DNA from: Cyanobium sp. M30B3 | GTDB lineage: Bacteria > Cyanobacteriota > Cyanobacteriia > PCC-6307 > Cyanobiaceae | Reading direction: 5' to 3' | Length of the DNA: 64,000 nt | Assembly: GCA_018399015.1 (NCBI GenBank) | Contig: CP073761.1 | Location: forward strand, 1,984,001 to 2,048,000 | Shown here: positions 17,901-50,221 of the stretch, piece by piece | Layout of the letters: each line of letters begins with the position of its first letter | Position numbering within the stretch: position 1 is the stretch's first letter | Notes under the pieces: generated by a model | The model's database searches: none | What the model saw: only the letters and a program-made list of their open reading frames with translations | Told to the model about the DNA's origin: nothing | Translations under genes and position numbers: made by a program

Positions 17901-19199
17901 CGCTCCTTCTTCACCAATCTTGTTCCCCTCCAGGTTGAGGGTGGTGAGCTGGGTGAGGGCCGCCAGAGAGGCGGCTCCCTGATCACCGATCTGATTACCC
18001 TTCAGGTCAAGAGAGGTGAGTTGCTTAAGACCCGCCAGTGAAGCCGCTCCTTCTTCACCAATCTTGTTCCCCTCCAGGTTGAGGGTGGTGAGCTGGGTGA
18101 GGGCCGCCAGAGAGGCGGCTCCCTGATCACCGATACCATTCGGATAGGTCAGAGGTTCAATTTGAAGGTTGAGTTGCAAATTAAGGTAGGTGAGCTGGGT
18201 GAGGTCCGCCAATGAAGCCACTCCTTTTTCGGTAATATTGTTCCCTTGAAGGTTGAGGTATGTGAGCTGCTTGAGGCCCGCCAGTGATGCCGCTCCATTG
18301 TCACCGATACCATACGATTCACTAAAAGGCCCTAATCCTAAATCAAGGTAGGTGAGCTGGGTGAGGTCCGCCAATGAAGCCACTCCCTTTTCGCTAATAT
18401 TGTTCCCTTCAAGGTTGAGGTGTGTGAGCTGCTTGAGGCCGGCCAGTGATGCCACTCCATTGTCACCTATGCCATACGATTCACTAAACCAATAGAGGCC
18501 CAAATCAAGGGAAGTGAGTTGGGCAAGAGACGCCAGGGAGGCCGCCCCTTCAGCACCTATCTTATTTCCCCACAGGTTTAGAGAGGTGAGCTGCTTAATA
18601 CCCGCCAGCGAGGCCGCTCCCACTTCGCCAATACCATTCCATTCGTCAAACCAATCCAATTGCAAATTAAGGGATTTGAGCTGCGTGATGCCCGCTAGCG
18701 AGGCCGCTCCATCAGGTCCAATCTTGTTAAATCCTAGGTCAAGTACCTTAAGCTGGGTGAGCAACAGCAAGAAGGCTACTCCCTTATCGCTAATCGTATT
18801 GGATTGCAGCTTCAGGATGCTGAGTTTGTTGAGGCCTGCGAGGGATTCCATTCCCGCATCACCGATCTTGGTGCTCCCCAAGTCGAGGTAGGTGAGTTGG
18901 GTAAGGGCCGCCAAGGATGCTGCTCCCGCAGCACCAATTTCGTTGCCCCTTAGATTAAGGTAGGTGAGCTGGGTGAGGCTAGCCAAGCGCTGTGCCAGAT
19001 CTCTCACGTTCTCCTGCAGGTGGTAAACCACAGGAGCTTGCTTGAGGCCGTCTGTCCATTCAGCAGATTTGGCTCTAAATTGGACATCAGGCCCCAATAA
19101 AATGAGATCGGTGGCGCCCTGTTCCTTCAGCTCAACGACCAAGCTGTCAAGATCCGCTGTGGAAAGCGTTTGTACGTGAGGTGTGGCTGCCATCAGCAC
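14937..19199 (-). CDS. LRR-Roc-COR (ROCO) GTPase with C-terminal DUF4062 domain
   Basis: 1420 residues. After a short N-terminal domain, leucine-rich repeats run from about residue 70 to 690, mostly 24 residues each. A Roc GTPase follows, with P-loop ILGEGRAGKTSLL near 760, switch TTKGIDIHRHEF and DFGGQQIYH near 810. A COR region comes next, then a four-Cys cluster (CLCPQC then CRASC near 1181-1220). A C-terminal DUF4062 domain (IKIFLASSSELRAERDVF, from about 1257) ends the protein; DUF4062 is considered TIR-like. The layout is that of an NLR-style sensor-switch-effector. It lies antisense between drmD and drmMI. The start may be ATG 19193. A defence role is inferred from architecture and position. 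Confidence 0.85.
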   Translation of the reverse strand: MLMAATPHVQTLSTADLDSLVVELKEQGATDLILLGPDVQFRAKSAEWTDGLKQAPVVYHLQENVRDLAQRLASLTQLTYLNLRGNEIGAAGAASLAALTQLTYLDLGSTKIGDAGMESLAGLNKLSILKLQSNTISDKGVAFLLLLTQLKVLDLGFNKIGPDGAASLAGITQLKSLNLQLDWFDEWNGIGEVGAASLAGIKQLTSLNLWGNKIGAEGAASLASLAQLTSLDLGLYWFSESYGIGDNGVASLAGLKQLTHLNLEGNNISEKGVASLADLTQLTYLDLGLGPFSESYGIGDNGAASLAGLKQLTYLNLQGNNITEKGVASLADLTQLTYLNLQLNLQIEPLTYPNGIGDQGAASLAALTQLTTLNLEGNKIGEEGAASLAGLKQLTSLDLKGNQIGDQGAASLAALTQLTTLNLEGNKIGEEGAASLAGLKQLTSLDLKGNQIGDQGAASLVALTQLTTLNLKGNKIGEEGAASLAALTQLTTLNLEGNKIGEEGAASLAGLKQLTSLDLKGNQIGDQGAASLVALTQLTTLNLEGNKIGEEGAASLAALTQLTTLNLEGNKIGEEGAASLAGLKQLTSLGLKGNQIGDQGAASLVALTQLTTLNLEGNKIGEEGAASLAGLKQLTSLDLKGNQIGDQGAASLVALTQLTTLNLEGNQIGDLNPFSCLTKLRHLNLKNNKVQDLAPLKPLLEAGMQVQWDRSYGLNVYGCPLVHPPPEIVQQGQEAVLNYLREIEAQGEDHLYEAKVLILGEGRAGKTSLLRRLYQPELPLPAEEATTKGIDIHRHEFNGQADQPFRLNIWDFGGQQIYHATHQFFLTKRSLYILVDDTRSNNKSVHDEGFKYWLEMIETLSEASPVLIFQNEKAGRSKSIDEAGIKGRFPNVKEVHAGNLEDGHSTAGLAKAIRYQVQQLPHVGEAVPAQWLQIRLEIDELKQANPHITQAHYLQLYAKHLPADRDKALKLSRYLHDLGVFLHFQEDPLLSRYVILQNTWATEAVFKVLDDEPTKARRGYFNRQDCARIWADSTYAEMHPELLALMERFELCYKLPDQKEDTWLTPQLLSPSAPEAFANWAQADDLVLTYQYDFLPKGLISRLMVRMHRFVLQPDLCWAAGALFERGDTQLLATLASPSGQEIELRARGPECKPLRDVIASDLDALNATFEGLQGKLRKLVPCLCPQCRQSTTPERYEEQLLLKRKAEGKKLSIECRASCEDVNILELLDGLRFDRMPAWANEASKAPNQPEASSPEPKTIKIFLASSSELRAERDVFDLYVRQQNDRLRQLGFYLEVIRWENFLDAMSEDRLQEEYNKAVRNCDIFLSLFKTKTGTFTEEEFNVAYQKFKASGRPSIYTYFLQPAVIADESMRKALTSLWDFKAKLKEFGHYPTECTSIEDLKLQFRSQLDLLISEGKL
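17197..18130 (-). repeat. near-identical 72-bp LRR-coding repeats
   Basis: About 13 consecutive leucine-rich repeats are almost identical at the DNA level, with 72-bp spacing (for example starts at 17488 and 17560) and higher-order alternation of three types: NQIGDQG, NKIGEEG-ALTQL and NKIGEEG-GLKQL. Outer repeats on both sides are diverged. This implies recent unit duplication or gene conversion, so copy number is expected to vary between strains and to be error-prone in short-read assembly. Confidence 0.85.
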
Positions 19200-24062: not shown

Positions 24063-25304
24063 ATGACAATTGAAGATGTAAAGAACAAATTCAAGGATGA
24101 GTACGCGCGGTACGGGCTAGTAGTGGTCGATGAGCACCCGGATGAATTGTTTTTTCGAACCAGAAGTGGAATTCAGGTAAAAGCTTCCTCTGAAGACTTG
24201 AACACTTACCTTGAATTCACGGAAAGACAGCCTGATTTTGAGAATATTCCGTTTGAGACGTGCCTCTGTAGTTCCAGTCACTATGAACAACTGGTTAGCA
24301 GTCCAAACCGCTACTCCTCCCTTAGTTTCTGGCGTGGTGACAGGCTTCAGTTTGGCAACACCGCAACAGATCAAATTACAGTCGAAATTGGCGAAGCAAG
24401 CTCTGATTTTAAGAACTCATTTCGTTTTCACGAGTTTGTTGTAAGGAGAACGCTGGATCGATTGCGCTTTAACCGTGGCCGTGACAATCAGACGCTCAGT
24501 GACCTTCTGTATGCACCATTGACAATTCGTGTTGTAGGCCTAAGCGAGTCGTCGCCCGAGACCGCGTCGAAAAAAGCGCTGGAGCTAATAGAAGGGTGCT
24601 TGTTTAACTTGGCTTATCTTAAAGGAACAACTCTTGTGCTCGAGGAAGAGCTGCCTAGGAATAAGACCCAAGGAGGAAGCTTTCAGTTCGAAGAAAACGA
24701 TTTCGGAAAAGAGCTGCCTCTGCCTAAAACTACAGTCAATAAGGATGTTGCAAGATTCTACCAACGTGGAATGGCGGCCGAGGATCCAGTTCATCAGTTC
24801 TTGTCCTTCTACCAAGTTCTCGAGTATTTCTTTCTTGCCGTTTCCGATGAAGACCTTTATCGCAAGATCGCCTTATTGGTGAACGATCCATTGTTTACAA
24901 CGAAGTCTAAGCATCTCGACAAGGTCATTCAGGCGACGCTCAATCATAAGCGAGAGTCTGACGAGACCGAGATGCTTAGAATGGTGATAAGAAAAAACGT
25001 AGAAGAATTAGAACTCGTAGCTTTTATCAAGGCTTACGAGGGCCATCTGGGTGAATTCTTGTACACCAAGAAGCGAAAGTTATTCGGCGAGGAAAGCCAG
25101 ATTAATATTGATGCTAAAGGGCATGTGATTGGAGGCGTCTCTAAGCGCATAAAGATAATCCGAAACGCCCTGGTTCATTCCTCCGATCGCCACAAGCGCC
25201 AAGAAAACTTTGTCCCAACACGCAACGCCGAAATGAAGATTCGCAAGGAAGTGCCGCTTCTCAAGTACTTAGCAGAAAAGGTGGTTATTGCATCGGGATC
25301 CTGA
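24063..25304 (+). CDS. ApeA-like HEPN domain protein
   Basis: 413 residues, with AAGGAG about 7 nt before the ATG. The N-terminal 200 residues are mixed alpha/beta without a motif I recognise. The C-terminal half has a HEPN layout: FLSFYQVLEYFFLAVSDE, then helices, then IRNALVHSSDRHKR with R367-x4-H372, the HEPN ribonuclease motif. The arrangement resembles ApeA-type HEPN effectors, which block phage by RNA cleavage. Base composition is far more AT-rich than the flanking DISARM genes, a sign of recent transfer. It is co-oriented with drmMI and drmA. RNase function is inferred from the motif. Confidence 0.72.
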   Translation: MTIEDVKNKFKDEYARYGLVVVDEHPDELFFRTRSGIQVKASSEDLNTYLEFTERQPDFENIPFETCLCSSSHYEQLVSSPNRYSSLSFWRGDRLQFGNTATDQITVEIGEASSDFKNSFRFHEFVVRRTLDRLRFNRGRDNQTLSDLLYAPLTIRVVGLSESSPETASKKALELIEGCLFNLAYLKGTTLVLEEELPRNKTQGGSFQFEENDFGKELPLPKTTVNKDVARFYQRGMAAEDPVHQFLSFYQVLEYFFLAVSDEDLYRKIALLVNDPLFTTKSKHLDKVIQATLNHKRESDETEMLRMVIRKNVEELELVAFIKAYEGHLGEFLYTKKRKLFGEESQINIDAKGHVIGGVSKRIKIIRNALVHSSDRHKRQENFVPTRNAEMKIRKEVPLLKYLAEKVVIASGS

Positions 25305-38392: not shown

Positions 38393-39106
38393 TCATTGGG
38401 CTAACATTTCAGCAATTTGACTCCTACAGTTTTGGGTGATTTCTCTGGCTATAGTGGCGCCGCTGCTGCCACGATACCGAGATCTCCAACTCTCATCAAT
38501 CAGCAGAGGATGGCCAAAAAGAACATCAACATGCCGGTAGAGGATTGCCGAATGCCAACCACCACTTTGAAACAGTGCTTCCGATGGATCGAAGCGCCGA
38601 AACAAGGCAAGCGGAGCCAGCTTTCTCTGCTTTTCCTCCCTTGAAGCAATCGCAACCGGCAGGATCGCCAGGCCATCCACAGGCACCCTCAGGGCAAGAT
38701 GCGCAAAACCCCTGTGGAATGGGCTGAGCTGCTGGGGGGCGTTGACCTTCACCATCGGATCCGCACCCTCAGGAAACACGCCCACCACCTGATTCGCTTG
38801 CAGAAACCTGGCCGACTGCTTAAAGAACGAGGACTGCCTTCGCTGATCAGCCTCTAGCGGAAAGGCACCCATCAGCGCAACTGCCTGCTGCAGTAGCGGC
38901 ACCTGGCTCATGTAATGGTGACAGACGAATCGCACGGGGCGGCTGATTGCCGACATCAGCAGGGGGGCATCTAGCAGGCTGCGATGGTTGCTGACAACAA
39001 GAAGTCTATTTTTGGTGGGTATTCGCTCAAGATTATGCAATGTCACTGACATCCCTGTGGCATCGAGCAGGCTGCGAGACAGTTGCAAGGGGATAGTGCG
39101 TTTCAT
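38393..39106 (-). CDS. PlsC-type acyltransferase
   Basis: 237 residues with the glycerophosphate acyltransferase blocks: VVSNHRSLLDAPLL (NHxxxxD motif I) and VGVFPEGADPM (motif III), then LPVAIASREE (motif IV). It acts at the membrane, moving acyl chains from acyl-ACP or acyl-CoA. It directly precedes the alpha/beta hydrolase gene on the same strand, recreating as two genes the domain pair fused in PES/Slr2103 enzymes. The domain order is inverted relative to the fusion, in which the hydrolase comes first. Confidence 0.8.
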   Translation of the reverse strand: MKRTIPLQLSRSLLDATGMSVTLHNLERIPTKNRLLVVSNHRSLLDAPLLMSAISRPVRFVCHHYMSQVPLLQQAVALMGAFPLEADQRRQSSFFKQSARFLQANQVVGVFPEGADPMVKVNAPQQLSPFHRGFAHLALRVPVDGLAILPVAIASREEKQRKLAPLALFRRFDPSEALFQSGGWHSAILYRHVDVLFGHPLLIDESWRSRYRGSSGATIAREITQNCRSQIAEMLAQ

Positions 39107-39270
39107 GCTTGCAGTCTTGCCACTCTCGGTGATGCGATCGAAGTGTGTTTTCTGATTTCCTCTTTTTTCCGGGGCTGCAGGGTCGTTTACGTCAAATAGT
39201 CTTGAATCAAGAGATGGGACGGTGCGAGCGTCAAGCCTGGCGGATCACCGCACAGTCGAGCCGTGTTGCT

Positions 39271-39534
39271 TCAGGCGGTTCGGGCCAGGGAGGATCTGCG
39301 CCGCCGTCCCAGCGGTTCGATCCACTCGTTCAGCACCTGGCGGTGCCGTTGCAGCTGCGGTGCGACCCGACAGCCCAGCTGGATCTGCCCTTGATCGAGC
39401 AGGCGGCCCAGCCGCTGCATTGCCGCCTGTTCAGCCCTGGTGAGGCGATCTTGCTGGCTCAACAGCCAGTCAATTTCAGCCTGGGTGATCACCCCGGAGC
39501 TGAGGCTCTCAAGGAACAGCTCGCCAGTGGTCAT
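39271..39534 (-). CDS. small hypothetical helical protein
   Basis: 87 residues with an all-helical pattern: MTTGELFLESLSSGVITQAE then IDWLLSQQDRLTRAEQAAMQ, and a basic C-terminus (RRRRSSLART). This style is common among small conserved picocyanobacterial proteins of unknown function. It is divergent from the DoxX gene. No motif allows a function call. Confidence 0.55.
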   Translation of the reverse strand: MTTGELFLESLSSGVITQAEIDWLLSQQDRLTRAEQAAMQRLGRLLDQGQIQLGCRVAPQLQRHRQVLNEWIEPLGRRRRSSLARTA

Positions 39535-39706
39535 GGATTTGTAACGAACTCGTCACATTCTGGCGGTTCGGCGGGGCTTCCGCGAGGCCCAAGGCCCAGA
39601 GCTGCCGCCTGGAAGCCCCGCCATGACAGGGCTGGGCTGGATGCCCGCGGCGCTTCACGTTCCTTAATGAGGCTTGCCATGATTGTTGAAAACGCCTCCC
39701 CACCCC

Positions 39707-40378
39707 GTGTCCACGTCCTCCCTGCTTGAGCTGTTCGGCGGCTTCATGGCCGCCTGTGTCGCCCTCTGGTTCGTGGCGATGAACAGGTTCGTCGCCCTTG
39801 ACAGGCCCGCCTCAAGGTCTGCTCCCCTGACTGGGCTCACGGCAGTCGCACCAGCCGTGCGCGCCTATCTGCAGCGCCCAGGCCTGCTGGCTTCCGTGGG
39901 TCTGCTACTGCTGCGCCTGAGCATCGGCGGGCTGATGATTCACCACGGCCAGGAAAAACTCGCCGATCCCCAGCAGTTCGCCAACACCTATGTGGCCTCG
40001 CTGCACCTGCCCTTCCCGCTGTTCTTCGCCTACGCTGCCGGCTTCTCGGAGTTGATCGGCAGCTGGCTGGTGATCCTCGGCCTGCTCACTCCCCTCGGCG
40101 CCCTGGCCCTCACCGGCACGATGCTGGTGGCGGCCTATCAGCACATCTCCACCGCCGGCTTCAACATCTACGTGCTCGAGCTGGTGCTGCTCTATCTGGG
40201 CGGCAGCCTCGCCCTGCTGTTCAACGGTCCCGGTCGCTTCTCCTTCGATGCCGGCATCGTGCCGACGTTGCTCGATGGCCTCAGCACGGCCAATGACTGT
40301 GAGTCTGCTGTCTCCTCACAGGACGATGGCGAGCAGCATGCCATTCCGGTGACTGTCAACTCCAGCGCCAGGGGATGA
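39707..40378 (+). CDS. DoxX family membrane protein
   Basis: About 223 residues from GTG 39707; a TTG at 39683 is the alternative start. After a first hydrophobic helix, the DoxX core reads LRLSIGGLMIHHGQEKLADP, then FFAYAAGFSELIGSWLVILG and LALTGTMLVAAYQHIS, giving four helices. DoxX proteins are inner-membrane proteins linked to redox or quinone chemistry and oxidative stress. The last 35 residues are polar. It is the last gene before the foreign-looking cluster. Confidence 0.8.
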   Translation: MSTSSLLELFGGFMAACVALWFVAMNRFVALDRPASRSAPLTGLTAVAPAVRAYLQRPGLLASVGLLLLRLSIGGLMIHHGQEKLADPQQFANTYVASLHLPFPLFFAYAAGFSELIGSWLVILGLLTPLGALALTGTMLVAAYQHISTAGFNIYVLELVLLYLGGSLALLFNGPGRFSFDAGIVPTLLDGLSTANDCESAVSSQDDGEQHAIPVTVNSSARG

Positions 40379-40825
40379 GCGCGGTACGTCGTTGTCTTGA
40401 TCCTCTTCCTCTGCTCTATAGTCCCTTCCTCCCAGCCTGTATACGGCTATCGCCCTGAACCTACCGCTGATCTTTGTTGTGGCCCCGGCACCATAGCTAC
40501 CTGATGCCACCTCATCTCTTGAGATTCTGGCGCAAGCTCAGGCCCCTGAGCCTTTTATCATTTAAGTTCTGCGGATCTTCAACCGTAGCGGATCATCCCG
40601 ATTTAACTAACGTTGTCCTTATGAAGGGTGGGTTACTTTTACTGGACTTGTTGGCCTTCCCCAATGTGGGCGGGTCAGACCGAGCCGACATCTTCGGTGA
40701 CAATGAGGATTTTCCGAGAAGCGTTAGGGAACGGGTGCGCCACAACCAATACGGCTGCTGGTTTGAGCCAGTGGCGATTACTGGTTCCTTAACCTAAGTA
40801 TTGCTGGTGGTGGTACGATTCAACA
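40379..40825. other. gene-free stretch at the left border of the foreign cluster
   Basis: 447 nt with lower GC than the left flank. One frame (40474-40797) is open for 107 codons, but its translation is compositionally odd and has no motif, so I do not call it. No tRNA or obvious attachment site was seen. The change in base composition begins here. Confidence 0.5.
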
Positions 40826-42148
40826 ATGGTATTTGATTCTCACCACCCTACTGTGCCGATTGAGTACTTATCTGACCGGGCGCTGGGCGAAGCCTTGCAG
40901 AGCTACGGTTCACCGCTCTACGTGTACGATCTCGATCTCATTGCCCGGCGGTACAAGCAGCTGCAGGACTGCCTGCCGCCCAACTTTCGGCTGCACTACG
41001 CGCTCAAGGCCAACGCAAACCTGACCATCTGTCGGCGCTTTGCCAAGCTGGGGGCGGCGGCGGAGGTGAGTTCCCTAGGGGAACTGATCACGGCGCTGCG
41101 GGTTGGCTTTGACCCAGAGGAGATTGTCTTTACGGGCCCTGGCAAAAGTCGCCAGGAGTTATTGGCGGCCCTGGCAGAGGGTGTGGGCCTGGTGGTGGTG
41201 GAATCCATTGGCGAAGCACGGCGGCTGGATGAACTGGCGGCGGCCCAGACCGTCGTGCAGCCGGTGCTGCTGCGGGTAAACCCGGCCTTTCGCAGCGCCA
41301 ATAGCTGTGAAGTTCGTTCCGGTGGGGCTGATGGAGCGGCCTGCGACACCCTCAAGCCCATCGCGATGAACGGCCAGGGGGCCAGCAAATTTGGTGTGGA
41401 TGAGGCGGCCATGGCGGCCACCCTAGCTGCACTGCTGGAGATGAAGCACCTGGAGTTTCGCGGTATTCACGTGTTTACCGAGAGCAACGTGCTGGACTAC
41501 CGGCAGCTGCTGGCGGCCTGGCAAAACACGGCGGCAATCGCCGCCAAACTGCACGCCTCCGGCATTCCCGTCCACACACTCGACTTTGGCGGCGGCATCG
41601 GCATTGCCTACAACGCCGTCGATGAGGAGTTTGACACGGTGGGCTTCGGGGTGGCCCTGGCAGAACACTTTGCATCTGGTGCCAAACCTCACCACTGCAT
41701 TCTGGAAATGGGCCGCTACCTGGTCGGGGAGGCGGGCTACTACCTGGCCGAGGTGCTGGACGTCAAAGAATCCCAGGGCCAGCGGTTTGTGATTCTCCAC
41801 GGCGGTATCCACAACCTGTACCGCACCCCGGCCATGCAGCCAGCCAGCCGCTACCTGCGGGTGCTGGGCAAGGGCGACTCCCCCACGCGGCCCGCCGTGC
41901 TAGCGGGGCAGCTACCGACTCCTGTGGATGTTATGGTTCGGGAGGTATCGCTGCCGGAGGACATTACCATCGGCGACGTGGTGGCGATCCAAAACTGCGG
42001 CGCCTACGGCTACAACCACTCGCTGACCAACTTTGCCCTGCATCCCTATCCAGCAGAGGTAGCCTTCGCAGGCGGAAACATGGTGGCAATCCGCGATCGC
42101 GGCACCTACGACGACTTCTTTGTCCACCAAAAGCTGGTGGAAATCTAA
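40826..42148 (+). CDS. fold-type III PLP-dependent decarboxylase (LysA-like)
   Basis: 440 residues. The barrel has the PLP lysine in LHYALKANANLTIC, the glycine loop LDFGGGIGIAYN, the phosphate-binding EMGRYLVGEAGYYL, and the C-terminal VAIQNCGAYGYNHS with the active-site Cys contributed across the dimer. It belongs to the diaminopimelate/ornithine decarboxylase group but resembles the subfamily used in natural-product and exosortase-linked clusters, not canonical LysA. It is the first gene of the four-gene cluster. The substrate is probably an amino acid made or used by the next gene. Confidence 0.8.
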   Translation: MVFDSHHPTVPIEYLSDRALGEALQSYGSPLYVYDLDLIARRYKQLQDCLPPNFRLHYALKANANLTICRRFAKLGAAAEVSSLGELITALRVGFDPEEIVFTGPGKSRQELLAALAEGVGLVVVESIGEARRLDELAAAQTVVQPVLLRVNPAFRSANSCEVRSGGADGAACDTLKPIAMNGQGASKFGVDEAAMAATLAALLEMKHLEFRGIHVFTESNVLDYRQLLAAWQNTAAIAAKLHASGIPVHTLDFGGGIGIAYNAVDEEFDTVGFGVALAEHFASGAKPHHCILEMGRYLVGEAGYYLAEVLDVKESQGQRFVILHGGIHNLYRTPAMQPASRYLRVLGKGDSPTRPAVLAGQLPTPVDVMVREVSLPEDITIGDVVAIQNCGAYGYNHSLTNFALHPYPAEVAFAGGNMVAIRDRGTYDDFFVHQKLVEI

Positions 42149-42166
42149 CATTTCCCATAAGAATTA

Positions 42167-42300
42167 CTCCCCTTGACAAGGAGGTCTGCAGGGAGAACAC
42201 CCTGTCACACGGATTTGGGGGGTCAAACCCACATTGCAGAGAGGTTCACGCTTCACAGGGCACTCCCTGAAAATCTCCCCTACCCCCTTGGCAAGGAGCC
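42167..42300. repeat. CCTTGRCAAGG palindromes in the cluster spacer
   Basis: Two copies of a short palindrome, CCCCTTGACAAGGAG at 42169-42183 and CCCCTTGGCAAGGAG near 42284-42298, sit in the 200-nt gap between the decarboxylase and dehydrogenase genes. Similar CCCTTG-AAGGG palindromes are frequent in intergenic DNA of filamentous cyanobacteria, which points to the donor lineage. Confidence 0.5.
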
Positions 42301-42349
42301 TTAGACAACAGGTTGCTTTGGCCTGAGCTGTTTTCACATTCATGTCCCT

Positions 42350-43687
42350 ATGACGCCTCCCATCACCATCGCCATTCGCCGCGAGAATGATCGCAAGTTT
42401 GAAGCCCGCACACCGCTGCTGCCGGAGCAGGTGGCGCTGATTCTGGCCCGGTTTCCCCAGGTGACATTTTTGGTGCAGCCCTCACGGCTGCGGGCCTACG
42501 CCGATGCCGCCTACTCCAACGCCGGGGCCACCGTCAAAGAAGACCTGTCTGAGGCTGATATCATACTCTGCATTAAGGAGGTCTACCCGGAGCAGCTGAT
42601 CGACGGTAAGACTTACCTAGTTTTTGCCCATGTGATCAAGGGCCAGACCGGCAATATGCCGATTTTGCAGGAGTTGCTCGATCGCCGTATCACCCTGGTG
42701 GACTACGAGAGCATTGTGGATGAGGCGGGCCACCGCACGGTTTTCTTTGGGCGATCGGCGGGCCACGCAGGCATGCTCGAAACCCTGCGCGCCCTGGGCA
42801 ATCGCCTTAAGTCCCTGGGTACGCCCTCAGTGTTCAGCCAGTTGCGCCCCATCTACGACTACCCCGACTTGGCTGCTGCCCTGGCTCACCTGGGTGAACT
42901 GGCCGAGGCCATTCGCCAGAACCCGACCGCGACGGGCATCGGCCACTATCCGGCGGTGTTTGCGGTGGCTGGGCTGGGCAACGTGGGCCAGGGGGCAATC
43001 GACATTTTTAAGCATCTACCCCACCGGATTGTCGCGGCTGGCGAGCTAGCCAACGTAGCCCAGTCCACCGAGCCCAGTTTAGTCCTTTGCCCGCTAACCA
43101 AGGCCGATCTGTTGCGCAACGGGGCAGGAATGTTCGATGCCGCCGAGTACGCCGCTGACCCCTTCAGCCACCGCAGCCTGTTGCCGGAGATGCTGATCAA
43201 TCTGACGGTACTGCTCAACTGCGTGTTCTATGCGCCGCACCTTCCCAAGCTTCTGCCCCAGCCGGAGTTTCGCGCAGCCTGGCGGGATCGGCCCCAGCGG
43301 CTCCAGGTGGTGGGCGACCTAAGCTGCGATCCTCCCGACGGGAGCGTGGCGTGTAGCGTTGCCGCTGGCGACCTCCACCACCCCACCTTCGACTACGACC
43401 CCGTCACCGAGCAGGTTTCCCAATCGTTTGGGGCCGGCACAGTGACGGTGATGGCGATCGACAACCTCTGCGCCGGGCTGCCGGTGGATGCGTCGGCGGC
43501 TTTTGGCACCATGCTGCTGCCCTACCTGGAGGGACTGATCGCCGCCGACAGGGAGAAGCGGGGCCTGCTTCAGGGCCTGCCCGCAGACGTGGCGCGGGCA
43601 GTCGTCACCCACCAGGGCCAGTTGACGGAGCGGTTTGCCTATCTGGAAACGCCGCTGCGATCCACCCTTAGTCAAATCATAGTTTAG
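42350..43687 (+). CDS. saccharopine/alanine dehydrogenase-like oxidoreductase
   Basis: 445 residues. The N-terminus (IAIRRENDRKFEARTPLLPE) is typical of the AlaDH/PNT N-domain of lysine-ketoglutarate reductases. A Rossmann loop VAGLGNVGQGAIDIF lies near residue 205, followed by a C-domain with VVGDLSCDPPDGS. Enzymes of this group reductively couple an amine with a keto acid or do the reverse. Next to a PLP decarboxylase this recalls opine-type or carboxyspermidine-type pathways, but the pair is not a standard one. The substrate is unknown. Confidence 0.75.
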   Translation: MTPPITIAIRRENDRKFEARTPLLPEQVALILARFPQVTFLVQPSRLRAYADAAYSNAGATVKEDLSEADIILCIKEVYPEQLIDGKTYLVFAHVIKGQTGNMPILQELLDRRITLVDYESIVDEAGHRTVFFGRSAGHAGMLETLRALGNRLKSLGTPSVFSQLRPIYDYPDLAAALAHLGELAEAIRQNPTATGIGHYPAVFAVAGLGNVGQGAIDIFKHLPHRIVAAGELANVAQSTEPSLVLCPLTKADLLRNGAGMFDAAEYAADPFSHRSLLPEMLINLTVLLNCVFYAPHLPKLLPQPEFRAAWRDRPQRLQVVGDLSCDPPDGSVACSVAAGDLHHPTFDYDPVTEQVSQSFGAGTVTVMAIDNLCAGLPVDASAAFGTMLLPYLEGLIAADREKRGLLQGLPADVARAVVTHQGQLTERFAYLETPLRSTLSQIIV

Positions 43688-43764
43688 CGTTCGAAATCCC
43701 CGATTACTCTCACCTTAATTCCCTCTCCCTGGAAGAGGTGCCTTAAAGAATCCTTCCAGCTCCC

Positions 43765-43795
43765 CTCACCCATTGGGAGAGCGTCTAGGGGTGAG
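43765..43795. repeat. inverted repeat between cluster genes 2 and 3
   Basis: CTCACCC (43765-43771) pairs with GGGTGAG (43789-43795). The loop contains CATTGGGAGAG. This type of Pyrimidine-rich intergenic palindrome is widespread in filamentous cyanobacteria and unlike the spacers elsewhere in this window. It may act as a terminator or mRNA stabiliser. Confidence 0.4.
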
Positions 43796-43852
43796 AGCCA
43801 CTGCTCCACACCCTACGCCCCGCAACTCCCCCGCAACCCACCGAGGCACCCC

Positions 43853-44749
43853 GTGAAACCTTCATCCTCCACCCAGATCTTCTACCGGAAACTGGCTGTA
43901 TATGGTGCGCTTGTGATCGGATTCGGTACGCTCACTGTGCTGCTGCCCTGGCCGCTGAAGCTTTTGGCCCAGCTGGGGTTGGGCGCTATGTTTGCCCATG
44001 GCATTGAGCTAGAGCATGAGCTGATTCACCAAAGGCACTTTGGCGGCGGCTGGCAGCGTTGGGTGGGCACCGCTCTCGGGCTGCCCCTGCTGGTGGATTT
44101 CACCCGCTACCGAGCGACCCACCTCCACCACCACCGCGCTCTGGGCACCCCCGACGATGAGGAGTCCTTTGCCTACGACTTTGAGCAACTGGCAACCCCG
44201 GCGGGTTTTGTCCCGCACCTGTCGATGGTGGGCCACTACCGGGCAGTGCTGCAGAGAATGGGAATGGCGCTTCGGGGCGATCGCCCTGCTCTCAGAGCCG
44301 ACATGGGCAAATCAGGAGGCAAACTTACTGCTGCTCGTCTGGCGGAAATCCAGCAGGGGTATTGGGTGTTTGCTGGGGCGATCGTCCTGGCCGTGGCCTT
44401 CTCCCTGGCCTTCCACAGCACCTTGGCACTTCAGCTTTGGGCAATGCCGCTGCTGTTTGCTAGCCCTATCCACGCCCTGATCGAGCTGCCCGAGCACTGG
44501 GGCTGCAAGCCCGACAGCACTGATCCGTTCGTCAACAGCCGCACCATTCAGCCCAGCCGATTCATGGACTGGTTTACCAACGGCAACTGCTGGCACGTAG
44601 AGCACCACGCCAGACCCGCCTTGCCCATGCATGCCCTACCCGAACTCCACACTAGCCACACCGCCCAGATCAAGCACCTCAACTACGGATATGGTGATTT
44701 CTTGGTTCAGTTCTGGGTAGCGCTGGGGCAGCAACGCGCAGAGACTTAG
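43853..44749 (+). CDS. membrane fatty-acid desaturase/hydroxylase family protein
   Basis: 298 residues, GTG start. Three His clusters of the non-haem di-iron family are present: HGIELEHELIHQRHF, THLHHHRALG, and CWHVEHHARP near the C-terminus, with hydrophobic helices between. The short first helix pair and the LPEHWGCKPD segment resemble hydroxylases and carotenoid-type oxygenases as much as acyl-lipid desaturases. It is one base from the SDR gene downstream. The substrate is unknown; it probably oxidises a product of the two upstream enzymes or an acyl chain attached to it. Confidence 0.75.
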   Translation: MKPSSSTQIFYRKLAVYGALVIGFGTLTVLLPWPLKLLAQLGLGAMFAHGIELEHELIHQRHFGGGWQRWVGTALGLPLLVDFTRYRATHLHHHRALGTPDDEESFAYDFEQLATPAGFVPHLSMVGHYRAVLQRMGMALRGDRPALRADMGKSGGKLTAARLAEIQQGYWVFAGAIVLAVAFSLAFHSTLALQLWAMPLLFASPIHALIELPEHWGCKPDSTDPFVNSRTIQPSRFMDWFTNGNCWHVEHHARPALPMHALPELHTSHTAQIKHLNYGYGDFLVQFWVALGQQRAET

Positions 44750-44750
44750 C

Positions 44751-45458
44751 ATGCAGACCGTGGTCATTACAGGCGTGGCCCAAGGCTTGGGCCGCGCTCT
44801 AGCAGAGGAATTTATCGCCCAAGGGCACCAAGTTGTGGGCTGCGATGTGGACGGAGAGGCGATCGAAGCCCTCCAACACCAGCACCCATCCCCCCACAGC
44901 TTTGCCACCGTAGACATTTCTGACGCCGCCCAGGTAGATCGCTGGGTAATGCAATGGATTGCGGAATTGCCTCCCGATCTATTAATTAACAACGCCGGGG
45001 TGATGCACCCATTGGGTCCACTGTGGGAAATTCCGGCGGAGCTGTGCGATCGCACTTTCGACGTCAACCTGGGCGGGACAGTCAACCTGCTACGGGCCGC
45101 GCTGCCAGCGATGGTGGCAAGGGGGCAGGGCATGGTGGTCAACCTCAGCGCCCGCTGGGGGAGGGTGGGGGCAGGCGGGGCTGCGCCCTTCTGCGCCAGC
45201 AAGTGGGCGATCGAAGGGCTGACCCAAGCCCTAGCTCAGGATCTGCCCGCTGGCATGGGGGCAGTCACCCTATCGCCGGGGGCGGTTAACACCCAGGCCC
45301 TAGCCACCATCCACGGGGCAGCCAAAGCCGGTACATACATTGATCCCCAGCCCTGGGCAGCTCAGGCGGTGCCCTACCTACTGAGTCTCAATCCAAAGCT
45401 ATCGGGCCAGGCGCTGACCTTTACCGCCCTGCGATCGCCGCAATGCTCAGATCGCTAG
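44751..45458 (+). CDS. short-chain dehydrogenase/reductase with Tyr to Phe change
   Basis: 235 residues starting one base after the desaturase stop. The cofactor loop reads VVITGVAQGLGRALAEE, and the NAG motif is LLINNAGVMHP. The catalytic Ser is in VVNLSARWG. The usual YxxxK appears as APFCASKWAIEG, so the catalytic Tyr is Phe here while the Lys remains. This would cripple ordinary SDR chemistry unless another residue substitutes. It closes the four-gene cluster. Sequence error is an alternative explanation. Confidence 0.8.
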   Translation: MQTVVITGVAQGLGRALAEEFIAQGHQVVGCDVDGEAIEALQHQHPSPHSFATVDISDAAQVDRWVMQWIAELPPDLLINNAGVMHPLGPLWEIPAELCDRTFDVNLGGTVNLLRAALPAMVARGQGMVVNLSARWGRVGAGGAAPFCASKWAIEGLTQALAQDLPAGMGAVTLSPGAVNTQALATIHGAAKAGTYIDPQPWAAQAVPYLLSLNPKLSGQALTFTALRSPQCSDR

Positions 45459-46841
45459 CGGCCCTAGGATAATTCCCTAGCCTGGGATAGGCATGTACGT
45501 TATAGGTTGTTTCCTGATACAATCATAGGGCAGCTCAAACATTGACAACAGCACTTTTAAGCTGGATTCTTGAGTGGTGATGCTTTTTGTTCTGTGTTCC
45601 GACATAACTGCTGATTGCGCTGATTCCCAATCCTTGTCAACTCCGCCTCAGTGCCGATGCTGGTGGTGCCCATCGCTGACAAGGGGATGGGGCTGGACAT
45701 TTGGTTCATGCTGAAGCGGATAGGAATGCCAGAACGGACGATCTGCCCGAACTCCGTCTGCTTCTCCATTGGGGTGCTCGTGGGCGTGATGAGGCTTCTG
45801 ATCGCCTAGGCTGCTTCACGATGATGGGAATCTGACCTGAGAGCATCTTCCCAGCACTGACGGAAGTCATTTACCCTGCAACGCCTTGATGATTCAAATC
45901 GAATCCCATCACCACTGGCACGGTAATTACCATGATGATCCGTAGATTTCCATCTGCTTGTGGTGGCTAGATCCCGTGGCGCTGAGCCAACTGAGCAAAG
46001 CCACCTGCTGATTGTAACCAACCCATGACGGCAGCTTTTGGAGCTGGGAGCGCGGCCTGCGCCTCAGCCTGCAGCCGGGCTCGATCGCCGATTGTCCTGA
46101 GGAGCTGAATTCGGCGCCTTACGAGCGCAGCCGGTCCTCCGTACTCTGGAGCCTGCTGGGCGACGATGCCAGCCTCTCGTGTGTGGGGCTCACCTAGGTC
46201 AGCCAACGCCTCGAATGGCCGCCGCGATCGCTCAGCTCTGAACCGATGGCGACTTGGGGACGGTTTCGGGTCGACAACCAGGCCGGTACCTGCCTCATCG
46301 TCGAAGATTGCCTCACGGTTTTCCCAGTTCCGCCGTTAACGTCTTGAGGCGCAAGGTCGTCCACTTGGGACAGCGCTCCACGTCTTTGGCGGTTTAAGCG
46401 TTTTGGCACCAGCCGTTGTACCCAGTCCCGAGAAGACTGGGTGAGATCAGATGCATTCAGCAAGTCCTCTATTGCCTAATCGATCGACCACCACCGCCAA
46501 CTGTCTGAGCCTCACTTGCCTGCAATGGAGCACCGACGGCAAACTTTCGGCTTTTGATCTCCACTTGGTCCGTGGCCGACTGGCGCGGGTCGATCAGCAT
46601 GTCGCCGCGATCTGGGGGAACAATCCGGATCTCGAACCCTGTCCCTCGATCAGCTGAACGCCCTTGTCAGGCGCGGATCAGCCCAATCCGCACTGCCAGC
46701 AAAGTCCGGCTGGCTCGCGCTGCAGGGATGACTGCCTTTCGCCGGGGGCCTCCGTTGCCGTGAAGGATTGCAGCGATAGCAGGCCCGAATGCTTGCGGAC
46801 CTTAAGAATTGCTTTAGCATTGGACCGACCTGGAGCTGCCG
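45459..46841. other. gene-poor region right of the foreign cluster
   Basis: About 1.4 kb with only short competing frames. Around 46022-46197 both strands are open for 60-80 codons (plus-strand HDGSFWSWERGLRLSLQPGS, minus-strand ending SAGGFAQLAQRHGI) and either could be a gene fragment. I recognise neither. It looks like decayed DNA at the right border of the transferred cluster. Confidence 0.45.
45557..45769 (-). CDS. possible small hypothetical protein
   Basis: A 70-residue frame (MEKQTEFGQIVRSGIPIRFS start, then AELTRIGNQRNQQLCRNTEQ) with an ATG and ordinary amino acid composition. There is no recognisable motif, no good Shine-Dalgarno and no operon context. Listed because it is the best frame in a 1.4-kb gene-poor stretch. 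Confidence 0.25.
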   Translation of the reverse strand: MEKQTEFGQIVRSGIPIRFSMNQMSSPIPLSAMGTTSIGTEAELTRIGNQRNQQLCRNTEQKASPLKNPA

Positions 46842-46925
46842 GTGATCCAATCCTTTTCAATTCTTGCCGCGACCGGTCTGGCAGGGCTGGCCCTGGTGAG
46901 CCTCTCCATCGCCTTCCTGATCTGA
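46842..46925 (+). CDS. possible 27-residue hydrophobic peptide
   Basis: GTG 46842 to TGA 46925 encodes a single-helix peptide: MIQSFSILAATGLAGLALVS followed by LSIAFLI. The size and hydrophobicity recall the tiny membrane subunits of photosynthetic complexes, but I cannot match it to PetL, PetN, PsaM or Psb proteins. It lies 65 nt before the P450 gene. Confidence 0.3.
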   Translation: MIQSFSILAATGLAGLALVSLSIAFLI

Positions 46926-46990
46926 GCAGCCTGTTGTTCTGAGCCGTTGCGTGTCTGTGGCGGCACCGTGCCGGCTGTGATCCGACATCC

Positions 46991-48466
46991 ATGGCTCCAT
47001 TCCAGCTGATGTTGGTGCCCCTCGATCCCGCAACCCTTCGGCCCCTCCCGAGCACGCCAGCGCTGAGCGGAGTGCTCGAGACCCTTGCCTTTTTTCGGGA
47101 TCCTGATTTCGCCCGCTCCCGCTTCGAGCGCTACGGCGATGTGGTCGAAACCAGACTGCTGGGGCAACGGACCGTATTCATTCGCGGCGGCCAGGCGATT
47201 AGCGACCTGTTCGCCCAGGGTGATGCGGTCCTGGGCTGGTGGCCCGACAGTGTGCGTGAGCTGCTGGGGCCCCTGACGTTGGCGAACCGCAACGGCGCCG
47301 ACCACAAGGCCCGCCGCCGGGTGGTGGGCCAGCTGTTCGCCTCGGCTGCCCTCAAGCGCTACAGCCCGTCGATCGTGGCTCTGGTCAACGAGCTGAGCCA
47401 GGAGCTGATCGCCTCAGCTGCGCCCGTGGCCCTGGTGCCCAAACTGCGGCGTTTTGCCTTCAGCGTGATTGCGAGCACGGTGCTGGGGCTGGACCCCGTA
47501 GATCGCGAGGCCCTGTTCGTGGATTTTGAAACCTGGTGCCAGGGTCTCTTCTCCCTGCCATTCGCTTTGCCCGGCAGCCCCTTCGCCCGTGCCCGCCAGG
47601 CCCGCCAACGTCTGCTCAGGCGCCTAGGCGCTGTGCTTAAGAAGGCGCAGGCCGCCATGGCTTCCGGAGCACCCATCGCCGCCGGCGGCCTTGATCTGCT
47701 GGCCGGTGGCCTGGATGAAGCCGGTCTCCCCTTGAGCGACGACGACGTGGCGGAGCAGCTTCTGCTGCTGCTGTTTGCCGGCTACGAAACCACCGCATCC
47801 GCCCTGAGCTGCCTGCTGCTGACCCTGTTGCAGCACCCAGCCGAGCTGGCCTGGTTGCAGGAGGAACTCGACGTCTTGTCCTGGCCGCCTGAGGAGGGGG
47901 AGGCTGAAGCCGCCACCGACGCTCTCCGGGCCCCGCGACTCGACGCGGTCGTGAAGGAGGTGATGCGGCTGACCCCGCCGGTGGGAGGGTTCTTCCGCCG
48001 CACCCGGGAGCCCATTGCCCTGGCGGGTGTACTGGTGCCAGCCGATCGGGTGGTGCAGGTGAGCATCGCCGCCAGCCAGCGCCATGGGGCCGATCCGGAG
48101 GATCTGGCGATGTTCAGGCCGCAGCGGCATTTGGCTGGTGACACCGCGGTCACCTGGCTGCCGTACGGAGGCGGTGAGCGAGTGTGCCTGGGCAAGGCGC
48201 TTGCGGAGCTGGAGATCCGGCTGCTGGCGGTGGGGCTGCTCAAACAGCTGACGTTGGAGCTGGTGGGGGATCAGGACCTGACGCTCAGGGTCATTCCCAG
48301 CCCCTCGCCTGCTGGTGCGCCCCTATTCCCGAGCCAGTTGAGCCTGCAACCTCACGAGCACGGGGGCCTCGGACTGGAACCGGGCTGCTGTTCAAGCCGC
48401 AGCCGTGGCGAGCGATTTCCACGGACCAGGCGATCCGTGGCCGCGCTCAACATTTCTTCACACTAG
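46991..48466 (+). CDS. cytochrome P450 (CYP120-like)
   Basis: 491 residues. The I-helix oxygen-binding motif is LLFAGYETTASAL, the ExxR is KEVMRLTPP, and the haem-Cys loop is LPYGGGERVCLGKALAELE. The general layout matches cyanobacterial CYP120-type enzymes, which oxidise retinoids or other lipids. The family normally ends about 40 residues earlier; here the tail (LEPGCCSSRSRGERFPRTRR) is unlike P450s, suggesting a 3' frameshift or fusion with following DNA. Redox partners are not encoded nearby. Confidence 0.85.
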   Translation: MAPFQLMLVPLDPATLRPLPSTPALSGVLETLAFFRDPDFARSRFERYGDVVETRLLGQRTVFIRGGQAISDLFAQGDAVLGWWPDSVRELLGPLTLANRNGADHKARRRVVGQLFASAALKRYSPSIVALVNELSQELIASAAPVALVPKLRRFAFSVIASTVLGLDPVDREALFVDFETWCQGLFSLPFALPGSPFARARQARQRLLRRLGAVLKKAQAAMASGAPIAAGGLDLLAGGLDEAGLPLSDDDVAEQLLLLLFAGYETTASALSCLLLTLLQHPAELAWLQEELDVLSWPPEEGEAEAATDALRAPRLDAVVKEVMRLTPPVGGFFRRTREPIALAGVLVPADRVVQVSIAASQRHGADPEDLAMFRPQRHLAGDTAVTWLPYGGGERVCLGKALAELEIRLLAVGLLKQLTLELVGDQDLTLRVIPSPSPAGAPLFPSQLSLQPHEHGGLGLEPGCCSSRSRGERFPRTRRSVAALNISSH

Positions 48467-48490
48467 GCTGAGGTAAAGAATCTCCCCTCC

Positions 48491-48718
48491 TTGAACGACC
48501 TTCTGACTTCTGTTTACCTGATCTGCTTCGCGCTGATCGCCGGTGGCGCTTTCGCATTGATGAGCCAGAACCTGCGCGTCTCAGCTTCGCTGCCTACTAC
48601 TCGAAGAAGTAGTTCCAGGCCTAAGCGCCATCCCGAGGCTGTCGAGCCCGGAGATGAGGTGCTTTATGTCGACCTCAGCCGGGAGCGGCTGGAGGAGCTT
48701 TACCAGAAGGCTTCGTAG
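48491..48718 (+). CDS. small single-helix protein, DUF2973-like
   Basis: 75 residues, TTG start. One transmembrane helix (SVYLICFALIAGGAFALMSQ) is followed by a basic linker and a polar tail HPEAVEPGDEVLYVDLSRER. The helix-linker-HPE pattern resembles DUF2973 proteins found in most cyanobacteria, probably thylakoid-associated. It follows the P450 gene by 24 nt but is probably an independent core gene. The family match is by eye. Confidence 0.55.
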   Translation: MNDLLTSVYLICFALIAGGAFALMSQNLRVSASLPTTRRSSSRPKRHPEAVEPGDEVLYVDLSRERLEELYQKAS

Positions 48719-48973
48719 ATCGTCTCGCTGTATCTTTCGGCTTGCTTCTATCCCTGAAGAGTCCATATTCCTCCCGGCAAAGAAGTGACCATAGGCAACC
48801 CTTTTGGTGAACTCAATATATTTATCCCTACAGATCTGTCTCTCAATGTAGAGGGCTTATGGTAGTTCAGTGCCGATGAGGCTCGTTCTCAAGCCATCTG
48901 TGTGCAATATCCACGTCCCGCCTTTAAGGAAAGTTTCAAATCTTGGACAATGGGCTCAAGCGTAGACAACGTC

Positions 48974-49111
48974 TAGTTCAACGGCAACCTGATGGTGGGC
49001 AAGGCCTACACCGCCATGCTCGACCTTAAGCCCGGCGATGAGTTCGAGATCAAGCTCGGCCGCAAGCCGATCAAGCTCATCCCCCTGGGCAGCACAGACG
49101 ACGAGGCGTGA
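48974..49111 (+). pseudogene. cyAbrB 3' fragment
   Basis: A 45-codon stretch from FNGNLMVGKAYTAMLDLKPG to a TGA at 49109-49111, nearly identical to the last third of the cyAbrB gene at 6147-6512. A TAG stands where the preceding codon was, and the N-terminal two thirds are missing. It begins the block of decayed copies that runs to 49964. Confidence 0.8.
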
Positions 49112-49129
49112 AGCCAGCAGCCCCTCAGC

Positions 49130-49683
49130 TGCCGGGGCGACGCTGACCCAACGCCAGCATCTCCAGCGCCTGGCCCTGCTGCTCCTGCCGCAGGGCCTAC
49201 GGTGCCTCGATGCGCAGGGCGCTGCCACTGGAGAAGAGCCAGCGGCGCAGGGCGATGCCGCGGGCAAGGATCCAGGGCGGCAGGTCAATCTCCAGCGGAT
49301 GGGGATGGCTATCACCGATCGGGTTCGGGGGCAGCACCCTGGCCAGGGCCGGATGCACCCAGTCCGCTGTGGTGCCCTGGGCCGCAGCCGTGAGCTCCGC
49401 TTGCTTGGCCGGCCGTTCCAGGCGGATCTGATCAAGGGAAAAAGGCACCTGTACCTGGCGTATGGAGACGTAGGCCTCCGGCTTGCTGGAGCAGCGCAGG
49501 GTCTGCAGCTGGCGGCGCCGCTGCTCGGCGCTGGGCTGGGAGAGCCCGTACTGAGCCTGGAGGTCACCGCCCAGCTCGATGCCACCGCAGTGATGCAGCA
49601 GCCGCTGCGGGCGGCTGATCGCCAGCTGGTGCTCGCTGGTGTTGCGGCGGCCGCGAGCCTCGGCCTGCAGGAACAACGGCGCC
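49130..49683 (-). pseudogene. 3' fragment of the kinase-WYL gene
   Basis: The reverse strand encodes a close copy of the C-terminal 180 residues of the protein at 7232-9400 (QAEARGRRNTSEHQLAISRP through PLEIDLPPWILARGIALRRW). A GAG to TAG change near 49198 truncates it, and the 5' 70 percent of the gene is missing. The left border next to the cyAbrB fragment matches the order of the originals, but the MazF pair between them has been deleted. Confidence 0.85.
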
Positions 49684-49964
49684 CGCCGCTTCCTCAGGAC
49701 GGCTCGCTTAGCAATAGCCGCCAGGTGCTGCACTTCCGCCCTGTCTGTTACGAGCGCTTCTCGTAGGCGCTGGAGCTCACCACCGGCGAGCTGATCCCCG
49801 GCCAGCCGCCGCTGCTGAAGTGCCGCAAGGAGATCACCCGCGACGAGGCGATCGAGCTCTGGCGCCAGAAGCGCAAGCAGGGCTGGCAGCCCTGTGAGCC
49901 CCAGTGGACGCCGCCACCCGAGGTGAAACCACCGGCTCGTCGCCCCGCCGCCAGCATGGGCTGA
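49684..49964 (+). pseudogene. DUF1651 gene with nonsense codon
   Basis: Starting at a junction inside the kinase-WYL fragment, the plus strand encodes a DUF1651 relative: SNSRQVLHFRPVCYERFS, then an in-frame TAG near 49764 where the intact gene has CAG. ALELTTGELIPGQPPLLKC follows, then EAIELWRQKRKQGW to TGA 49962-49964. Apart from the stop it is well preserved, so decay is recent. Confidence 0.8.
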
Positions 49965-49978
49965 ACAGGAAGCCCGTT

Positions 49979-50221
49979 GTGCTGCTGAACCCCCTCTGTC
50001 CATTCACCACAGCCAAGCTGCTGGCCCTCAAGGCCACGGTGCTGCTGCTGCTCACCCTGCTGATCAAGGCCAAGATCCGAATCACCGCTTTCTCAGCCCT
50101 CGGCATCGTCCTGCTGCTGCTGCAGACCCTGGTGTTCCTGGCCATCAGCGGCGGCCTGGTGCTCGCTGCTGGCGGGGCAGCGATCTACAGCACGCAGAAG
50201 CGCCGGCCCGCTGTGGGCTAA
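49979..50221 (+). CDS. small hydrophobic membrane protein
   Basis: 80 residues from GTG 49979. Two or three hydrophobic helices: LKATVLLLLTLLIKAKIRIT, SALGIVLLLLQTLVFLAISG and a Gly/Ala-rich third. The first codons (LLNPLCPFTTA) and the preceding 30 nt are repeated upstream of the decayed copper ATPase at 55240-55306. No family recognised. A terminator-like hairpin follows at 50261. Confidence 0.5.
   Translation: MLLNPLCPFTTAKLLALKATVLLLLTLLIKAKIRITAFSALGIVLLLLQTLVFLAISGGLVLAAGGAAIYSTQKRRPAVG

Follow-up and report, generated by a model that had tools for sequence, protein, structure and literature searches.

A transferred cyanobacterial gene cassette joining an LKR-type reductase to a fold-III PLP enzyme without the catalytic cysteine

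In the carboxynorspermidine/carboxyspermidine pathway, a reductive coupling by a dehydrogenase of the LYS9 type is paired with a fold-III pyridoxal 5′-phosphate (PLP) decarboxylase, a logic akin to that of the locus described here. CANSDC is named among the literature on alanine-racemase-fold decarboxylases, in all of which an active-site Cys is described as conserved; the substrates of the BtrK/FigC/SbnH subfamily are modified amino acids (PMC7857480; this and all other PMC sources are cited from partial texts). For ODC, Lys69 and Cys360 are given as the two essential residues (PMC5574924), and LKR forms saccharopine from lysine and 2-oxoglutarate (PMC9490328). Here we analyse four genes at positions 40826-45458 of a 64,000-nucleotide stretch of the Cyanobium sp. 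M30B3 genome (the window, G000:C1:1984001-2048000; the genome is 3.18 Mb in a single contig). This compact cassette couples an enzyme of the saccharopine-forming type, familiar mainly from eukaryotes, to a PLP enzyme that is without the supposedly universal Cys. We propose, with roughly even confidence, that it is a horizontally transferred, self-contained cassette for a small lysine-derived metabolite of the opine type.

A sequence-only reading of this DNA had described four genes running in one direction, and the open reading frames (ORFs) and Pfam matches agree with that layout:

40826-42148, + strand: dec, a fold-III (alanine-racemase-fold) PLP enzyme of 440 amino acids (Pfam; BtrK match; residue alignment)
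42350-43687, + strand: LKR-type reductase of the AlaDH/PNT superfamily, 445 amino acids (8dda match; profile E 4.1e-72; residues)
43853-44749, + strand: FAD, an FA_desaturase-family membrane di-iron enzyme of 298 amino acids with a GTG start (PF00487; His columns)
44751-45458, + strand: a short-chain dehydrogenase/reductase (SDR) of 235 amino acids (adh_short; alignment)

The intergenic gaps are 201 bp between dec and LKR, 165 bp between LKR and FAD, and 1 bp between FAD and SDR.

Recurrence and transfer of the gene set

All four genes, 91-98% identical to those of the window, are present on a contig from a cyanobacterial metagenome-assembled genome (VGQX01000011.1; L025). Complete cassettes in the order of the window are also found in the genomes G011 (50-61% identity) and G469 (57-63%). 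In G558, the four genes are present in order, with LKR in two overlapping frames, and a second FAD–SDR piece lies at the start of contig C241. In G553, cassette pieces lie across two contigs with the order kept and LKR split at the identical place, and G491 has dec, LKR and FAD in order. dec is found in every cassette seen. The proposal that the genes form one functional unit, which hinged on their co-occurrence elsewhere, survives, because the gene set recurs in order.

The surroundings of these copies differ. L025 has transposase and defence-type genes as neighbours; the genes named by eye are aminotransferase-like in G011, glmS-like and Uma2-like in G469, exonuclease-like in G491 and menC-like in G558 and G553. 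A defence-type pair, a DUF2326 gene and a gene with an ABC-three-component C-terminal domain (CTD12), lies near the L025 cassette at 15316-18296.

The distribution is sparse. At E <= 1e-20, 6 of 388 genomes of the class carry LKR, as do 4 of the 36 in the order of G011; among 151 members of the window's family, the window's own genome is the single one to have it. dec occurs in 7 of the 388 class genomes (E <= 1e-80), namely the six that bear LKR and G116, which holds a related cluster considered below. In a DNA search of 13 genomes of the genus, the DoxX and P450 regions that flank the cassette were matched in many and, among the matches listed, none from the other 12 lay inside the cassette. 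A wider search of the phylum (E <= 1e-3) gave LKR matches in 23 of 386 genomes: two full-length (the window's own and G011), two partial (G035 and G047) and 19 short and weak. The short loci of G035 and G047 hold partial LKR relatives without another cassette gene; these relatives (L003 in G035, L004/L024 in G047) are approximately 39-44% identical and come from cyanobacteria outside the window's class. Among 72,556 plasmid records, two carry LKR, both from Persicobacter and at 27-29% identity; on the annotated one, the nearby features listed include no decarboxylase or SDR, and an alkane 1-monooxygenase lies approximately 9 kb from LKR. Searches of viral contigs with the LKR and dec profiles, of phages, and (by blastn) of E. 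coli genomes led nowhere; beyond cyanobacteria, a single scan of genome contigs was made, sensitive to close relatives only.

The foreign origin proposed from the sequence is supported by this distribution and by a block of DNA common to the window and L025, rather than by composition:

39683-40378, + strand: DoxX-family gene (Pfam DoxX, 2.1e-20), inside the block common to L025
39719-45494, no strand assigned: 5.8 kb block comprising the DoxX gene and the cassette (blastn against L025; own-genome search)

The block is 93.3% identical to L025 7357-13152 (blastn). Beyond its ends, similarity between L025 and the window's genome is confined to scattered pieces (72-87% identity) at other places, and the ORF of an IS1595-type transposase (L025 6644-7351) ends directly before the shared block. 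The DoxX gene was not found near cassettes other than those of the window and L025, and has a second copy elsewhere in its own genome (88% over 39453-40380). Further evidence comes from G011 and G469, which belong to different families (f5 and f23) and are nevertheless sisters in the trees of all four genes (ultrafast bootstrap 95 for dec, 99 for FAD, 95 for LKR and 87 for SDR). Gene by gene they are 65-71% identical, against 48-60% for the three genes common to G011 and G491, both of f5. Because this pairing recurs across all four trees against the family labels, the cassette travels as a unit between distant cyanobacteria.

Composition and spacers, which the sequence-only reading had also described as unlike the host, proved less telling. 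GC content at third codon positions (GC3) is 0.69-0.77 in the cassette and 0.82-0.87 in eight window ORFs of 238-1404 amino acids; numerous further ORFs of the window fall within 0.50-0.80, so that composition is weak evidence for foreign origin and was rejected as proof of it. The LKR–FAD spacer was likewise rejected as a donor signature, its closest match beyond the window (E 0.009) pointing to no clear donor.

The cassette genes are under purifying selection. Between the window and L025, dN/dS is 0.25 for dec, 0.22 for LKR, 0.24 for FAD and 0.065 for SDR; for the pair G558 and G553, the values are 0.07 for dec, 0.18 for FAD and 0.03 (0.029) for SDR, the gene with the lowest value in both pairs compared.

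Residues kept and lost in the four enzymes

The first gene product, dec, matches Orn_Arg_deC_N (2.5e-38) and Orn_DAP_Arg_deC (1.4e-14), with PF02784 and PF00278 both above their cut-offs. Its closest solved relative is BtrK (7ru7/2j66, E 3.2e-56), and diaminopimelate decarboxylases come next. It was rejected as the host's LysA: it scores 269.8 bits against the LysA model TIGR01048 (NCBIfam), below the cut-off of 297.9, and another LysA-like gene, 34% identical, lies at G000:C1:2190846-2192051. The PLP-binding Lys61 is kept in all seven full-length dec sequences (the position falls outside the truncated G116 piece), and H215, E294, R297 and Y394 are retained. At the position of the fold's catalytic Cys, however, dec has Pro364, in an ungapped stretch (GQLPTPVD versus GPLCTPED in BtrK); all five alignments printed place a Cys there. 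Pro occupies this position in 8 of 8 cassette-type enzymes (seven cassette dec sequences and G116), whereas Cys does so in 8 of 8 aligned relatives, comprising the host LysA-like protein and seven plasmid relatives out of 238 records found. The assignment to fold-III PLP decarboxylases made from the sequence therefore stands for the fold domains and the PLP Lys; the conserved active-site Cys of that class is lacking and, because it is, plain decarboxylation cannot be assumed.

The cassette-type enzymes also have in common an insertion in which Cys161 is invariant (8 of 8), with no Cys counterpart in the eight relatives. Their only other invariant Cys, Cys391, is present in two Paracoccus relatives as well. 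The loss of the fold's Cys together with the gain of Cys161 suggests a relocated acid, and the chemistry of dec may be new. Cys360 mutants of ODC reportedly carry out decarboxylation-dependent transamination. An oxidative reaction of dec could be modelled on PLP decarboxylases of other folds, for which reactions with oxygen that yield carbonyl products are known (PMC7497351).

The second gene product had been called saccharopine-dehydrogenase-like. That description holds in the saccharopine-forming sense, and its sequence places it with the LKR/LYS1 type rather than with LYS9-type saccharopine dehydrogenases. It matches AlaDh_PNT_N (3.4e-17; PF05222 at 63.4 bits, cut-off 30.4) and falls slightly below the cut-off for PF01262 (22.1 versus 23 bits). 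Its best solved relatives are the LKR chains of human AASS (8dda, E 2.2e-58, residues 6-436), and yeast Lys1 follows at approximately 5e-10. In the alignment, the catalytic Lys93 and His111 of the human enzyme, equivalent to the yeast LYS1 pair (PMC13174811, preprint), correspond to Lys76 and His94. Together with Arg20, Glu77, Lys97, Glu120 and Arg129, Lys76 and His94 are identical in 6 of 6 sequences (five full-length cassette LKRs and that of Persicobacter). The N-terminal domain, whole-length LKR match and catalytic Lys/His pair are thus all those expected of an LKR/LYS1 enzyme.

LKR begins lysine breakdown in animals and plants (PMC9490328), and the cassette might accordingly serve to break down or salvage lysine, or an adduct of it, instead of making a product. 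We consider this unlikely. The host genome has no match to the saccharopine-cleaving family PF03435, whereas 13 of 14 control genomes were positive in this search, and ordinary saccharopine catabolism was rejected because the host is without this partner. To our knowledge, an oxygenase with an unusual PLP enzyme is no known breakdown set.

The third gene product had been read as a di-iron membrane oxygenase, and its family match and invariant His residues bear this out. FAD scores 120 bits against FA_desaturase (PF00487, 2e-34; cut-off 29.7), and 13 His columns, including H55/H59, H90/H93/H94 and H248/H251/H252, are invariant in 8 of 8 FAD sequences, as expected of the family's His boxes. No credible solved relative was found (three matches, best E 0.31). 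Family membership itself leaves room for a lipid function, in which FAD would be a real fatty-acyl desaturase or hydroxylase and the other enzymes would make or trim an amino-acid head group. The DesA model is matched by 5 of 8 FAD sequences, CrtR by 2 of 8 and DesB by 1 of 8, and a Burkholderia relative (38% identical) adjoins a gene named by eye as AMP-ligase-like. We nevertheless hold a lipid function to be improbable. The only curated NCBIfam model that matches the window's FAD is GntB (NF041365), an amino-acid hydroxylase model matched by 8 of 8 FAD sequences, although at 32.8 bits, far below the cut-off of 380, so that FAD is not a GntB member; moreover, the cassette contains no acyltransferase, ligase or acyl carrier protein. 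Genes beside distant FAD relatives include those for an amino-acid transporter, a 2OG-oxygenase and a peptide ligase, as well as biotin genes, a Rieske protein and sugar-type genes. We favour a substrate that resembles an amino acid, and on sequence grounds FAD is possibly an amino-acid hydroxylase.

The fourth gene product belongs to the SDR family (adh_short, 1.5e-39), as stated earlier, but a role in oxidation is uncertain. The window's SDR keeps TGxxxGxG, NNAG, Ser133 and Lys151, all the motifs of a classical SDR except the Tyr of YxxxK, which is Phe147. Phe replaces this Tyr in 5 of 7 sequences (window, L025, G469, G558 and G553), with Tyr present in G011 and G116, and for this reason an oxidative role cannot safely be assigned.

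A candidate pathway

The best clue to the class of substrate is the G116 cluster (contig C234, L117, 1873-11118), a larger amino-acid-tailoring cluster in which dec is cut by the contig end. The genes that follow on the same strand encode a HalD-like oxygenase (sub-cut-off match), asparagine synthase, a MurL-like protein (below cut-off), a second oxygenase (PhyH), a member of the isochorismatase family, a dehydrogenase of AlaDH/PNT type, an SDR with 51% identity to that of the window, and a methyltransferase-like protein (below cut-off). As judged by sequence relationships, the cluster is related to the cassette and not of independent origin, because the dec tree places G116 beside G491, G558 and G553 (88/84, moderate support). 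The place of LKR is taken in G116 by another enzyme of the AlaDH/PNT superfamily. Four plasmid proteins annotated as N(5)-(carboxyethyl)ornithine synthase show 35-38% identity to this dehydrogenase, and further matches, at approximately 28%, are annotated as alanine dehydrogenase; by annotation, the G116 enzyme would place a carboxyalkyl group on the far nitrogen of ornithine. The pairing of the same dec type with a carboxyethylornithine-synthase-like gene counts in favour of the opine-type reading of the window's cassette.

In the pathway that we propose, LKR would couple 2-oxoglutarate to the omega-amino group of lysine or of a closely similar amino acid, so that saccharopine or a corresponding conjugate is formed. 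dec, with PLP, would then act on the free alpha-amino-acid end of the conjugate and change C-alpha, in the manner of its relatives FigC and SbnH, which act on N-modified amino acids; without the usual Cys, it might use a relocated acid (Cys161) or release an aldehyde or imine. FAD could hydroxylate or desaturate the small product at the membrane, and SDR would end the pathway by redox or imine chemistry. The most likely product is an omega-N-carboxyalkyl lysine derivative, later changed at C-alpha and oxidised. The opine- or polyamine-like reductive coupling suggested by the sequence-only reading remains the likely logic, and its remark that the enzyme set fits no known pathway agrees with our search of open-licence PMC papers, in which none was matched; overall, its interpretation is partly supported.

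Several observations weigh against this pathway. All substrates, the sequence of the steps and the identity of the product are inferred, and the case for the substrate rests on homology. The 11 kb G116 contig has neither LKR nor FAD, G491 (listed as 96% complete) has no SDR of the cassette type at E <= 1e-30, and FAD also fits fatty-acid desaturase models. LKR is split in G558 and G553 (L042 2511-3895, L044 5748-6642) with dec, FAD and SDR intact, and may for that reason be dispensable there; decay, frameshifting or an assembly effect could account for the split. A single transcript is made less certain by a terminator-like site between dec and LKR (42309-42325, +) and by a scan for sigma-70-like promoters that found 0 against 1.6 expected.

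That dec and SDR are non-catalytic remnants with a scaffold or regulatory role, LKR and FAD alone being at work, is very improbable: dec is without the fold's Cys, most SDRs are without the Tyr and inactivity is presumed for ODC homologues that have lost Cys360 (PMC5574924), but Lys61 and the other four retained residues of dec, the strong constraint on SDR and the presence of dec in every cassette argue otherwise.

Our proposal of an opine-type product can be extended, tentatively and with some doubt, to a new type of fold-III reaction. The Cys-less dec, by an inserted Cys loop or by oxidative or transaminating decarboxylation, would act on an omega-N-carboxyalkyl lysine or ornithine, and the mostly Tyr-less SDR would handle an imine, yielding undescribed oxidised opine-like metabolites of cyanobacteria, spread by transfer. 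If dec is active, it shows either how the Cys can be replaced or a novel PLP chemistry, and the cassette points to cyanobacterial metabolites derived from amino acids that form a group not yet described.

The cassette's neighbours in the window are the DoxX gene and a P450 gene (46991-48466); the latter was rejected as a member, since congeners have similar genes and it is unmatched beside the cassettes read. A stretch of approximately 145 bp at 48967-49111, with many copies at 79-91% identity in genus genomes and elsewhere in its own genome, looks like a dispersed repeat. An Rfam search of 39000-50200 gave no match. Farther away, 14937-19199 encodes a 1420-aa Roco-type protein (leucine-rich repeats, Roc and COR; GC 0.555, below most of its surroundings), and a 413-aa ORF at 24063-25304 has a GC of 0.458 within the GC-rich window and MauJ as its sole match.

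Comparison with known systems

The reductase of the cassette, being of the LKR/AlaDH-PNT type, sets it apart from the carboxynorspermidine/carboxyspermidine pathway. With human AASS (LOR domain) and yeast LYS1 that reductase shares its fold family, the catalytic Lys and His and a number of other residues of the active site; it differs in standing alone, in a host without a saccharopine-cleaving partner, and in having a PLP enzyme and an oxygenase as its cassette partners. N5-(carboxyethyl)ornithine synthase belongs to the same AlaDH/PNT superfamily and has a homologue beside the dec relative in G116, although there is none in the window's cassette. GntB, the guanitoxin L-arginine hydroxylase, resembles FAD in that its model is matched by all eight FAD sequences scanned, yet the score of the window's FAD is less than a tenth of the cut-off. 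dec is closest by sequence to the BtrK/FigC/SbnH subfamily, from which it differs in having Pro364 for the conserved Cys and the Cys161 insertion, and in lying in cassettes beside which, at the loci read, there is neither a carrier protein nor a citrate ligase. The specific novelty of the cassette is this Cys-less fold-III enzyme.

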